Of a stretch of 36,440 nucleotides of DNA, positions 26,881 through 31,764 are shown one piece after another. The stretch is from positions 1 to 36,440 of the forward strand of contig CAJWQR010000011.1 in assembly GCA_913045195.1 (NCBI GenBank), in the 5' to 3' direction. Source of the stretch: an uncultured Legionellales bacterium. GTDB lineage: Bacteria > Pseudomonadota > Gammaproteobacteria > Eutrophobiales > Eutrophobiaceae. Numbering within the stretch: position 1 is the stretch's first letter; each line of letters starts with the position of its first letter. The notes beneath the pieces are model-generated. The model did not search any database and had not been told where the DNA came from. It saw only the letters and a program-made list of their open reading frames with translations. Both the position numbers and the translations under genes were made by a program.

Positions 26881-26897
26881 TGCACTATAATGGCGTG
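26881..26897. promoter_or_regulatory. NtrC-binding site 1 upstream of glnA
   Basis: TGCACTATAATGGCGTG closely resembles the NtrC consensus (TGCACnnnnnGGTGCA type). Its centre lies about 128 bp upstream of the predicted glnA start of transcription, in the normal enhancer position. Confidence 0.75.
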
Positions 26898-26910: not shown

Positions 26911-26927
26911 TGCACAATAATAGTGCG
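26911..26927. promoter_or_regulatory. NtrC-binding site 2 upstream of glnA
   Basis: TGCACAATAATAGTGCG has TGCAC and GTGCG half-sites spaced 7 bp apart. It lies exactly 30 bp from site 1, so both sites face the same side of the helix, as in the two-site glnA enhancer of E. coli. Confidence 0.8.
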
Positions 26928-26989
26928 AATTTTTTTTAATTTTAGACTGCAACTTATTGATTATTTTACGTATAGCAAACATTATGTAG

Positions 26990-27005
26990 TGGCATATTAG
27001 TTGCA
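26990..27005 (+). promoter_or_regulatory. Sigma-54 promoter of glnA
   Basis: TGGCATATTAGTTGCA matches the -24/-12 consensus TGGCACG-N4-TTGCW, with the invariant GG and GC 12 bp apart. Transcription would start about 12 bases downstream of the GC, near 27016, leaving a leader of about 58 nt and a GAGGAGA ribosome-binding site before glnA. Confidence 0.85.
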
Positions 27006-27073: not shown

Positions 27074-28483
27074 ATGTCATCGGATAACGTATTCAAACTA
27101 ATTAAGGACCACGATGTTAAATTCGTCGACCTTCGTTTCTGTGATACCGCTGGTAAAGAGCAGCACGTAACAGTCCCCGCTAGTGTAGTTGATCAAGAAA
27201 TGCTTAAAGAAGGAAAAATGTTTGATGGTTCGTCCATCGCAGCTTGGAAAGGCATTAATGAGTCAGACATGATTTTGATGCCCGAGAGCGAAACTGCCGT
27301 TATCGATCCTTTTTTCGATGACGCAACATTAAATATTCGCTGTGATGTAATTGAGCCATTAACTATGAAGGGTTATGAACGTGACCCACGCTCAATTTCA
27401 AAACGAGCTGAAGATTATTTAAAATCTACAGGTATTGCAGATAACGCATATTTTGGCCCTGAACCCGAATTTTTTATCTTTGATGAAGTGCGTTGGGGAG
27501 ATGAGTTACATTCAGGGTTTTATGAAGTTGATTCAGAAGAAGGTTGTTGGAATAGCGATCGAATTGATGAGGACAAAAATATTGGTCATCGACCAGGCGT
27601 AAAAGGTGGCTACTTCCCAGTACCACCAGTTGATTCAGGACAAAATATCCGTTCGGCAATGTGTACGGTTCTTGAAGAAATGGGCCTTACAGTAGAAGTT
27701 CATCATCATGAAGTTGCAACAGCTGGCCAAGCGGAAATTGGAACGTCTTGCAAAACTCTAACAAGAAAAGCCGATGAACTATTAATTCTAAAGTATGTTG
27801 TTCACAATGTTGCGCATAGTTACGGGAAGACGGCAACATTTATGCCTAAGCCATTGGTTGGTGATAATGGTAATGGAATGCATGTACACATGTCGCTAGT
27901 TAAAGATGATAAAAATCTTTTTGCAGGGAATAAATACGGCAATCTTTCTGATACAGCATTACATTACATTGCCGGAGTTTTTAAGCATGCTCGTGCTGTT
28001 AATGCGTTCACAAACGCAAGCACAAACAGTTATAAACGTTTAGTGCCAGGCTTTGAAGCACCCACTTTATTGGCATACTCAGCAAGAAATCGTTCCGCAT
28101 CTTGCCGTATACCATGGGTTTCAAATGATAAAGCTAGGCGTATTGAAGTCCGTTTTCCTGATTCTTGTGGCAATCCATACTTTACTTTTGCTGCGCTAAT
28201 GATGGCAGGTCTTGATGGAATACAAAATAAGCTTGACCCAGGCGAACCTATGGAAAAGGATTTGTATGACATTAGCTCAGAGGAAGAAAACAAGATAGCG
28301 ACAGTTTCTTCATCATTAGATATGTCTCTCGAAGCACTCGATAAAGATCGCAGTTTTCTTACTGCAGGCGGTGTTTTTACCGATGACATGATTGATGGTT
28401 ATATTGCATTGAAGATGGAAGAAGTTAATCGTTTTCGCATGACCACTCATCCTGTTGAGTTTGATATGTATTACAGTTTATAG
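27074..28483 (+). CDS. glnA: Glutamine synthetase, type I
   Basis: Makes glutamine from glutamate, ammonia and ATP. It is 469 aa, the length of GSI-beta enzymes. Landmarks include [17 protein letters not shown], the metal/substrate block [38 protein letters not shown] and [13 protein letters not shown]. The adenylylation tyrosine Y398 (Tyr397 in E. coli numbering without Met) is in EKDLYDIS, so regulation by GlnE is expected. The upstream control region carries a sigma-54 promoter and two NtrC sites, and a strong terminator follows. ntrB-ntrC lie just downstream beyond a DUF4124 gene. Confidence 0.99.
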
Positions 28484-28503: not shown

Positions 28504-28531
28504 AAACCCCTTCCAATGAGGGGTTTTTTTT
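28504..28531 (+). terminator. Intrinsic terminator after glnA
   Basis: ACCCCT (28506-28511) pairs with AGGGGT (28519-28524) around a 7-base loop, extended by flanking A/T pairs, and is followed by eight T (28524-28531). It should end most glnA transcripts, separating glnA from the DUF4124 gene. Confidence 0.92.
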
Positions 28532-28588: not shown

Positions 28589-29092
28589 ATGAAACTAATA
28601 TTTTTACTACCATTGTTTTTTTATATCCCTATTCTTTATGGTGAGGTTTATAAGACTGTAGATGAGGATGGCAATATTATATTTACGGATAGGCCATCTT
28701 CAAATTCCGAGGAAATCAAACTTCAGGAGTTAAAGACAACGGAAACTATCAAGCCATCCACCTCCTCCCCAAGCAGAAAAAGTCGGGGCGAGACTGATGA
28801 GAGCCTTTCTTATAAGAAGCTGTTTGTATCAAATCCAGTAGACGGTTCATCCATAAGGAGTAATAGTGGGAATGTCAGTATATCAATAGTTCTTAAGCCT
28901 TCTCTTCGCTCCGGACATAGAATTTTAATCACAATGGACGGAAAGGAGCTGTCAAAGGGTTCCGGAATGAGCGCTTCTGTCACAAATATTGATAGAGGCA
29001 CACACACCGTAGGAGCGAGTGTTATCGATAGTTCTTCAAATGCAATCATTTCGGCATCAAGTACGTTTTCAATTCTTCGTTCAACACAATAA
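28589..29092 (+). CDS. DUF4124 domain-containing exported protein
   Basis: A 167-aa protein with a signal peptide (MKLIFLLPLFFYIPILYGE), so likely periplasmic. The N-terminal DUF4124 motif is EVYKTVDEDGNIIFTDRPSS. A low-complexity Ser/Thr linker follows, and then a beta-rich C-terminal part (LFVSNPVDGSSIRSNSGNVSISIVLKP ... TNIDRGTHTVGASVID) that resembles an Ig-like fold. The function of DUF4124 is unknown. Its position between glnA and ntrB is conserved in several gammaproteobacteria, which suggests stable linkage but not a proven nitrogen role. It lies after the glnA terminator. Confidence 0.9.
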   Translation: MKLIFLLPLFFYIPILYGEVYKTVDEDGNIIFTDRPSSNSEEIKLQELKTTETIKPSTSSPSRKSRGETDESLSYKKLFVSNPVDGSSIRSNSGNVSISIVLKPSLRSGHRILITMDGKELSKGSGMSASVTNIDRGTHTVGASVIDSSSNAIISASSTFSILRSTQ

Positions 29093-29147: not shown

Positions 29148-29163
29148 TGGCCTGTTTCTTGCA
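29148..29163 (+). promoter_or_regulatory. Candidate sigma-54 promoter upstream of ntrBC
   Basis: TGGCCTGTTTCTTGCA keeps TGGC and TTGCA with GG and GC 12 bp apart, the same spacing as in the glnA promoter. Transcription would start near 29174, about 127 bp before ntrB. The two bases after TGGC differ from consensus, and no NtrC site is seen upstream of it within the gap. Confidence 0.55.
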
Positions 29164-29268
29164 CTGATTAACAAGAATAAATAAAATTTTTTATAAAATT
29201 ATAACTTATTGTAATTATTGATAAAAATATAAAATAATAAATAATAGTGAGAATTAATACGTGATAAA

Positions 29269-29285
29269 TGCACTAATACAGTGCA
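29269..29285. promoter_or_regulatory. NtrC-binding palindrome just before ntrB
   Basis: TGCACTAATACAGTGCA is a perfect palindrome of the NtrC half-sites TGCAC / GTGCA with a 7-bp spacer. It ends 15 bp before the ntrB ATG, in a position suited to autorepression of ntrBC, as NtrC does at the E. coli glnL promoter. Confidence 0.8.
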
Positions 29286-29300
29286 ATATTAAATACACTT

Positions 29301-30371
29301 ATGAATCATACCGAAGAAAGAGCTGCGCAAACTATTGACCATCTAGCAACGTCAGTACTGTTGTTTGATGAGAACCTACATTTGGTATCAATAAATAGCG
29401 CTGGAGAAAGCCTGTTATCGATGAGTAGCAAACGGATTTTAGGGCTGCCCCCCGAAAAAATTTGGCCAAATACTATGTTTTTTTCAGACATGATTAGAAA
29501 GTCTTTTCAATTTGTCAGAACACGCATAGAGCGAGGCGTTGAAATGGGACTTATTAATCGAGACTCAGTTAAGGTGGATTGTATATTTACTCCGATTGTT
29601 ATCAATGATGAAACAAAAGAAATTATTGTTGAACTAGTTGGTGTTGATGCATTTGTTCGCGAGATGCAAGAATTTAATCATCAAACTGTACAGAAGGTAG
29701 CCAATGAGTCAGTACAAGGCATGGCCCATGAAATTAAAAACCCTTTAGGCGGAATACGCGGCGCGGCACAATTAATGGAAAAAGAATTAGATGATGAAAG
29801 TTTACTCGAATATACGAAAATTATTATTAATGAATCAGATCGCTTAAGAAATTTTTTAGATCGTATGATGGCCGCTAATACGCATCCTGTAAGATCTGAT
29901 ACAAATATTCATGAAATTATTGAATATGTTATTTCAATTATTCGTGTTGAAAGTTCTCGAAACATAAATATTGAGAAAGATTATGATCCAAGTATCCCAA
30001 CTATTAATGCTGACCGAGAGCAACTTATTCAGGCAGTATTAAATTTATTACGAAACGCAGTTCAGGCAACTACAGACGATGAAAGAATTCTATTAAAAAC
30101 GAGGATTCAACGACAGATAACCATTCAAAATAAACTCAATAAATTAGCAATTCAGCTCGATGTTATTGATAACGGACCTGGCATACCAGCTGAGATTGAA
30201 TCGGGAGCGTTTTACCCAATGGTCACAGGCCATGCAGAAGGTACAGGGCTTGGGCTATCAATTGCGCAACAATTAATTCAGTCGCATGGCGGGGCAATTA
30301 ATTACGAAAGGAAAGAAAACAATACCTACTTCTCAATATTATTCCCTATCGATCGTAACAATGCAGAGTAA
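29301..30371 (+). CDS. ntrB: Nitrogen regulation sensor kinase/phosphatase NtrB
   Basis: Cytosolic histidine kinase that phosphorylates NtrC when nitrogen is scarce and dephosphorylates it when PII is unmodified. It is 356 aa (E. coli 349). It has an N-terminal PAS-like domain (DHLATSVLLFDENLHLVSIN), an H box MAHEIKNPLGGIRGAAQL with phospho-acceptor His143, an N box LNLLRNAVQAT, and a G box DNGPGIP ... GTGLGLSIAQQLI. No membrane segment is present, as expected. The 3' end overlaps ntrC by 11 bp. Confidence 0.98.
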   Translation: MNHTEERAAQTIDHLATSVLLFDENLHLVSINSAGESLLSMSSKRILGLPPEKIWPNTMFFSDMIRKSFQFVRTRIERGVEMGLINRDSVKVDCIFTPIVINDETKEIIVELVGVDAFVREMQEFNHQTVQKVANESVQGMAHEIKNPLGGIRGAAQLMEKELDDESLLEYTKIIINESDRLRNFLDRMMAANTHPVRSDTNIHEIIEYVISIIRVESSRNINIEKDYDPSIPTINADREQLIQAVLNLLRNAVQATTDDERILLKTRIQRQITIQNKLNKLAIQLDVIDNGPGIPAEIESGAFYPMVTGHAEGTGLGLSIAQQLIQSHGGAINYERKENNTYFSILFPIDRNNAE

Positions 30372-31764
30372 TAAAAAAGTATGGATTGTAGATGATGATA
30401 AGTCCATTCGTTGGGTTTTAGAGAAGGCTTTAAAATCGGCAGATGTTGATATAACAAGTTTTTCGCACCCTGATGATGTTTTAGAAAGGATAAATAAGGA
30501 AGAGCCAGATGTAATTATTACTGATATTCGTATGCCAGGTATGGACGGGATTTCATTATTAGATCGTATTAAACAGCATTCTCCAAGTATTCCAGTAATT
30601 ATAATGACCGCATACTCTGATCTTGATAGAGCTGTATCGGCATTTCAGGGGGGAGCATATGAATATCTTTCTAAACCTTTTGATGTTGATGAAGTTATTA
30701 GTTTAGTTAGGCGTGCCATAGTAGATAGACAAACTGATAATGTATTACCTCTCTCCGAACCTGAAACTGAAGGCAATCCAATTATTGGTTCTGCTCCTGC
30801 AATGCAGGAGATATTTAAAGCGATCGGTCGACTGTCAAATTCGAATTTTACTGTTTTAATTACTGGCGAATCTGGTACAGGCAAGGAATTGGTGGCAGCT
30901 GCATTACATGGTAATAGCCCTAGATCGAAGAATCGATTTATTGCGATAAATACTGCTGCTATTCCTAGAGATTTACTCGAATCAGAATTATTTGGACATG
31001 AAAAAGGTGCTTTTACCGGAGCAACCACACAACGACAGGGTCGTTTCGAACAAGCTAATGGAGGTACACTTTTCCTCGATGAAATCGGCGATATGCCCGC
31101 AGACTTACAAACACGACTACTTCGAATACTCGCGGAAGGAGAGTTTTACCGAGTTGGCGGACATGTGCCGATCAAAGTAGATGTGCGTGTTATTGCCGCT
31201 ACACATCAGAATTTAGAAGAACTGGTAAAGGCAGGTAGGTTTCGTGAAGACCTATTACACAGACTGAATGTTATAGGGGTTCATGTTCCATCATTAAGAG
31301 ATAGAAAAATAGATATTACTGAGCTTTCAAAACATTTTCTTAATTCAGCAGCAAAAGAATTAGGAGAAGAGAAGAAACAATTGCTACCAGAGACAGAAAA
31401 TTACCTAACAACTTTACCGTGGCCTGGCAATGTTAGACAGCTTGAGAATTTTTGTCGTTGGGTAACCGTGATGGCTTCTGGTGTAGAAATTCATATTGAT
31501 GACCTCCCTCCTGAATTAAAAAAAGATATTATTGTAAATGACGAAAGTGATTCATGGGAGAGTACTTTTAGAAAATGGGTAAAATCCAGTTTATCAAATA
31601 GTGATATTGAATTATTAAAAAAAGCGGTTCCATTATTTGAAACTATTCTAATTGAGGAGGCACTAAAAAAGACAAATGGTCGTCGACAGGATGCTGCAAA
31701 GTTGCTTGGTTGGGGAAGGAATACTCTGACAAGAAAAATAAAGGAGTTAAATATTAATTTGTAA
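30361..31764 (+). CDS. ntrC: Nitrogen regulation response regulator NtrC
   Basis: Sigma-54-dependent activator of nitrogen genes. I choose the ATG at 30361 (MQSNKKVWIVDDDKSIRW), not an upstream in-frame one at 30286, because it gives 467 aa and the E. coli NtrC N-terminus (469 aa). The receiver domain has phospho-acceptor Asp55 in IITDIRMPGMDG. The AAA+ domain has Walker A GESGTGKEL, the sigma-54-contacting GAFTGA loop in ELFGHEKGAFTGA and Walker B GGTLFLDEIGD. The C-terminal Fis-type helix-turn-helix is GRRQDAAKLLGWGRNTLTRKIKEL. It overlaps ntrB and converges on hemB 3 bp away. Confidence 0.98.
   Translation: MQSNKKVWIVDDDKSIRWVLEKALKSADVDITSFSHPDDVLERINKEEPDVIITDIRMPGMDGISLLDRIKQHSPSIPVIIMTAYSDLDRAVSAFQGGAYEYLSKPFDVDEVISLVRRAIVDRQTDNVLPLSEPETEGNPIIGSAPAMQEIFKAIGRLSNSNFTVLITGESGTGKELVAAALHGNSPRSKNRFIAINTAAIPRDLLESELFGHEKGAFTGATTQRQGRFEQANGGTLFLDEIGDMPADLQTRLLRILAEGEFYRVGGHVPIKVDVRVIAATHQNLEELVKAGRFREDLLHRLNVIGVHVPSLRDRKIDITELSKHFLNSAAKELGEEKKQLLPETENYLTTLPWPGNVRQLENFCRWVTVMASGVEIHIDDLPPELKKDIIVNDESDSWESTFRKWVKSSLSNSDIELLKKAVPLFETILIEEALKKTNGRRQDAAKLLGWGRNTLTRKIKELNINL

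Follow-up and report, generated by a model that had tools for sequence, protein, structure and literature searches.

The window analysed here, a stretch of 36,440 nucleotides, comes from a gammaproteobacterial genome of 1.39 Mb that is assembled in 86 contigs and 91% complete. On the forward strand of the window, glnA is followed by a terminator-like hairpin, a DUF4124 gene, ntrB and ntrC (Table 1). The identities of NtrB and NtrC are both supported by scores above the curated NCBIfam cut-offs. Textbooks present NtrC at glnA as the model bacterial enhancer and place it upstream of its promoter. The glnA control region of the window has this classic order, with two NtrC sites, an IHF site and then a sigma54 element, which is the reverse of what is found 2 kb downstream before ntrB.

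Table 1. Genes and control elements of the glnA-ntrBC locus (window positions)
Feature	Position	Strand	Remarks
NtrC sites, glnA control region	26881-26897 and 26911-26927	+	
IHF site, glnA control region	26950-26962	+	perfect
sigma54 element, glnA control region	26990-27005	+	
glnA	27074-28483	+	
Intrinsic-terminator-like hairpin	28508-28531	+	directly after glnA stop; 1 found vs 0.8 expected by chance
DUF4124 gene	28589-29092	+	Pfam PF13511; between glnA and ntrB
sigma54 -24/-12 element TGGCCTGTTTCTTGCA	29148-29163	+	exact match; predicted start near 29174
IHF-like site TAACTTATTGTAA	29202-29214	+	exactly 67 bp before palindrome; degenerate, 7/9 consensus positions
NtrC palindrome TGCACTAATACAGTGCA	29269-29285		putative operator and putative downstream enhancer; from sequence, conserved in relatives
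Extended -10 TGCAATATT (TGC-AATATT)	29282-29290	+	putative near-leaderless sigma70 promoter of ntrB; from sequence and conservation
ntrB (NRII sensor kinase)	29301-30371	+	NCBIfam NF008293, above cut-off
ntrC (NRI)	30364-31764	+	TIGR01818, above cut-off; GAFTGA intact

The -24/-12 element before ntrB retains GG-N10-GC and is near consensus. A gap of 105 bp separates it from the NtrC palindrome, which in turn ends 15 bp before the ATG of ntrB. A preliminary description of this DNA had located both elements and the two gaps; the coordinates proved exact, and both distances were confirmed. Counted from the predicted +1 at 29174, the palindrome covers positions +96 to +112, and our recalculation agrees with the earlier placement within the predicted sigma54 transcript. 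The palindrome is perfectly symmetrical, with 2 mismatches to the consensus TGCACCNNNNNGGTGCA, and the pattern TGCAC-N7-GTGCA is rare, occurring at 2 places in the 1.39 Mb genome. The other copy (L034 1501-1517; G000:C9:24036-24052) lies between a divergent rne-like/rluC-like gene pair and is possibly there by chance. Exact TGGC-N7-TTGCA, on the other hand, has 21 matches genome-wide, 3 of them in the window, while the pattern read backwards has 4. Because of these 21 matches, the -24/-12 match taken alone is weak evidence.

The evidence that we take to be decisive is comparative, and lies in the conserved pairing, order and spacing of the two elements together with backwards controls of zero. 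We collected ntrB and its upstream region from relatives of the source genome, including the window's own family. Outside genus g16, the sigma54 element lies 5' of the NtrC palindrome in 39 of the 39 family genomes that yielded ntrB, which represent 15 genera, and in all 39 the palindrome ends shortly before ntrB. Measured from start to start, the distance between the elements is 114–135 bp, mostly 121–128 bp, with clusters near 115, 121–128 and 134–135 bp. The preliminary description had proposed to look for conservation of both elements at a fixed spacing, and the family displays it, the spacing being near-fixed. Pairwise identity averages 83% within the sigma54 element and 80% within the palindrome (conserved as YGCACYA-N4-RGTGCR), compared with 28–34% for flanks and spacers. 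A relaxed pattern for the pair matches 34/53 genomes of the family and 6/369 of the class; the same pattern read backwards matches none of the 53 and 369. In Methylohalomonas lacus, a relative available in culture, the layout is the same and the spacing is 125.

Two genera depart from the general picture. In g18, the core of the sigma54 element differs (CGGCACGTTAATTGCT, GGGCACATAAATTGCT), yet GG-N10-GC and a spacing of 126 bp are unchanged, which points to recognition by sigma54 as the conserved property. In g16 (loci L028, L030 and L156–L160), the sigma54 element is absent from 7/7 genomes and the palindrome from 6/7; genome G020 has the palindrome without a sigma54 element. Genomes G020 and G031, the two from this genus that were read as sequence, have glnA directly before ntrB, with no DUF4124 gene between them.

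Upstream of the sigma54 element, no NtrC-like palindrome (at least 11 of 13 consensus positions) was found within 260 bp at 39 loci, and the best scores there were about those of shuffled sequence. The downstream palindrome is the only good NtrC site nearby. Nor are NtrC sites concealed within the upstream DUF4124 gene, where a look-alike at locus L079 encodes a conserved RGTHTV motif. In genus g11, loci L022 and L032 have a further NtrC-like palindrome (TGCACCTATATGGTGTA, TGCACTTATATGGTGAG), about 172–176 bp before ntrB, that extends over the -12 portion of the sigma54 element and might limit the sigma54 promoter at high NtrC.

A putative sigma70 promoter overlaps the palindrome itself. At 20/51 loci, a hexamer that matches TATAAT at 5/6 positions or better starts on the palindrome's last base and is preceded by the palindrome's own TG (extended -10, TGC-AATAAT). 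The same match is found at 0/51 loci when sought at six offsets before and four after this position. The putative sigma70 transcript would be nearly leaderless, since the median distance from hexamer to start codon is 9 nt. The window's own hexamer, AATATT, matches at 4/6 positions, with a predicted start near 29297 and the ATG at 29301. The window's putative promoter has no recognisable -35, and the -10 is not recognisable at every locus. NtrC bound to the palindrome should block this promoter. The preliminary description had considered that NtrC might repress a separate sigma70 promoter located in the AT-rich DNA between the two elements. The comparative data favour such an operator role, but the promoter most likely lies directly under the palindrome and not in the AT-rich spacer, where consensus matches are no more frequent than in shuffles.

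Between the two elements we found a further feature, which adds to the preliminary description. In relatives, an IHF-like site (YAANNNNTTGATW) begins 66–68 bp before the palindrome. Among 43 less redundant loci, 20 have such a site, matching at least 8/9 positions, within one 3-bp window, compared with at most 4 in 300 shuffles. This site between promoter and putative enhancer is strong across relatives and weak in the window itself. The source genome encodes an IHF-beta-like protein beside rpsA and an HU-like protein beside lon; ihfA was not found in this 91% complete assembly. As IHF-alpha scores above cut-off in 2/5 relatives from the genus, including one that is 98% complete, its absence may be an assembly gap. 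Loop lengths of Vibrio qrr sigma54 enhancers cluster in steps of about 11 bp (PMC4740811). Over all our loci, helical phasing gives an R of about 0.48 at 10.5 bp and an equal value at 12.5–13 bp. It is only suggestive, because a narrow main cluster dominates and other families lie at 137–155 and 189 bp.

The source genome contains rpoN and, as far as found, three enhancer-binding proteins. GAFTGA is intact only in NtrC, and since this is the only GAFTGA protein found, NtrC is the likely activator of sigma54 promoters in the source cell, of whose genome about 9% may be missing. The second enhancer-binding protein (G000:C23:6825-7310) carries GAFTNA. The third (G000:C1:38432-38914) is NtrX-like and lacks the GAFTGA loop; in the relative L265 it is found in an ntrY-ntrX-trkA-like setting.

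Outside the family, we compared 104 ntrB upstream regions. The opposite order, with the palindrome preceding the sigma54 element, occurs in 60 genomes of 53 families and is the usual one for ntrB across the class. By the same rule, the window's order occurs in 10 genomes of 7 families. Spacings in other families (137–155 and 189 bp) are looser than in the window's family. In the mirror order, 33–108 bp separate the sigma54 element from ntrB, and some loci have an IHF-like site between this element and the palindrome. The sigma54 elements of both groups resemble one another (TGGTYTGNTTCTTGCT). In an unrooted maximum-likelihood tree of 42 NtrB proteins, the window order falls on one side of a branch with 97/90 support, and the mirror order together with E. 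coli falls on the other. Genus g16 nests inside the window-order side, as a loss. In mirror-order families, the palindrome encloses a TATAAT-like hexamer (GCAC-TATAAT-GGTGC) in 22/62 ntrB upstream regions; an NtrC-blocked sigma70 promoter may also exist at these loci.

The best explanation of these observations, and one that we consider fairly probable, is a two-promoter switch, in which a single NtrC site represses a housekeeping promoter and acts as a 3' enhancer for a sigma54 promoter. Under nitrogen excess, the sigma70 promoter with the extended -10 would supply basal NtrB and NtrC from a nearly leaderless mRNA. Under nitrogen limitation, NtrC-P would occupy the palindrome, which corresponds to about -28 to -12 of the sigma70 promoter, and would switch that promoter off. 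The same NtrC-P, located about 100 bp 3' of the sigma54 start, would loop back to the sigma54 promoter with the assistance of IHF-bent DNA between the elements. Activation of this promoter would then increase NtrB and NtrC. In this scheme the elements, their conservation, order and spacing, the lack of an upstream NtrC site and the tree pattern are observed, whereas we infer that NtrC binds, loops and represses, and in which direction regulation runs.

We favour this switch because a conserved pair at near-fixed spacing (39/39 genomes) is set among unconserved spacers, with backwards controls at zero, because g18 keeps GG-N10-GC and 126 bp, and because 39 loci have no NtrC site within 260 bp upstream. 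Further reasons are the fixed place of the IHF-like site, the extended -10 under the palindrome, the mirror order in 53 families with its supported NtrB split, and the presence of rpoN together with NtrC as sole GAFTGA protein. The comparative data thereby appear to favour two alternatives raised in the preliminary description, an NtrC enhancer acting from downstream and a mixed positive/negative loop. Counting against the switch are the single palindrome, where the usual NtrC enhancer has two sites, the poor IHF site of the window, the missing ihfA, the -10 that is not seen everywhere and the looser spacing in other families.

Alternatively, the two elements could serve separate functions. 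The palindrome would then only repress the sigma70 promoter, and the sigma54 promoter would respond to NtrC-P that is either free in solution or bound far away, for example at the glnA sites about 2.2 kb upstream. E. coli lacks the sigma54 element but has a palindrome in the corresponding position, as does G020, and in vivo data suggest negative control of the E. coli promoter, glnLp, by NtrC (PMC3870243). However, the near-fixed spacing, the IHF-like site in between and the stable mirror order elsewhere suggest a link between the elements, and we regard separate functions as rather unlikely. The palindrome also lies inside the predicted sigma54 transcript, so that NtrC at +96 to +112 might act as a road-block, halting elongation of a transcript activated by other means and thus providing negative feedback. 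Elongating polymerase, however, generally gets past lone bound proteins. Moreover, the 260 bp upstream contained no other activating site at the 39 loci, and a road-block would leave the IHF-like site and the conserved spacing unexplained. This alternative, already raised in the preliminary description, gained in its pure form no specific support and seems to us highly improbable.

The untranslated stretch of about 100 nt after the sigma54 promoter could suggest that this promoter drives a small RNA or a structured leader and not ntrB. A fold z-score of 0.35, the lack of any Rfam family near threshold for this stretch, the lack of a terminator between the sigma54 promoter and ntrB and the unconserved spacer rule against such an RNA, to which we give very little credence. 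Isolated -24/-12 matches are frequent, with 21 exact ones genome-wide, but a chance element, with an NtrC-repressed sigma70 promoter as the only real one, is strongly contradicted by zero backwards controls and by a spacing that stays near-fixed in 39/39 genomes from 15 genera, and we can scarcely credit it.

Returning to the two-promoter switch, we see an even chance for a broader proposal. One palindrome would serve a near-leaderless sigma70 promoter as its operator and a sigma54 promoter as a natural 3' enhancer; the order of enhancer and promoter would have been swapped once between two clades, with both kinds of element kept and the mirror layouts stable since. Our search of the openly accessible literature turned up no natural case of an NtrC enhancer lying downstream at ntrBC. 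If true, a conserved downstream NtrC enhancer on the regulator's own operon, mirrored in sister clades, would amount to a natural experiment both on the position of an enhancer and on the way in which one site can hand a gene between sigma factors. The layout is testable because the cultured M. lacus shares it.

The proposed architecture is reminiscent of the sigma54 flagellar promoters of Caulobacter, which, judging from titles cited in PMC3096577, have a 3' enhancer with IHF and FlbD/ftr sites (Gober and Shapiro 1992, Mullin and Newton 1993, Benson 1994). As far as these titles tell, both have a sigma54 element followed by an IHF site, which in the window is a weak IHF-like one, and then by activator sites downstream, which in the window are represented by the putative enhancer. 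Whereas the Caulobacter system comprises FlbD and flagellar genes in Alphaproteobacteria, the window has NtrC on its own operon, over a putative sigma70 promoter. For Pseudomonas aeruginosa, the title of Jyot 2002, as cited in PMC5026340, places FleQ sites 'atypically downstream' relative to the RpoN site, and this wording likewise suggests an NtrC-family activator acting downstream of a sigma54 promoter. The activator is a different one, and the genes are flagellar. We know of no sigma70 promoter switch at FleQ promoters.

Closer to the locus itself, E. coli glnLp is a sigma70 promoter with an NtrC palindrome (TGCACTAAAATGGTGCA) that lies, as in the window with its putative sigma70 promoter, a short way before ntrB, but it has no sigma54 element in front. 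There, a TATAAT -10 precedes the palindrome and a ribosome-binding site follows it, whereas in the window the putative extended -10 emerges from the right half of the palindrome. NtrC autoactivation has been stated for pseudomonads (PMC8871633). Other gammaproteobacterial ntrBC promoters resemble the window in having one NtrC palindrome, a similar sigma54 element (TGGTTTGGTTCTTGCT) and sometimes an IHF-like site. They differ in that the palindrome lies upstream and the sigma54 element is the one near ntrB.
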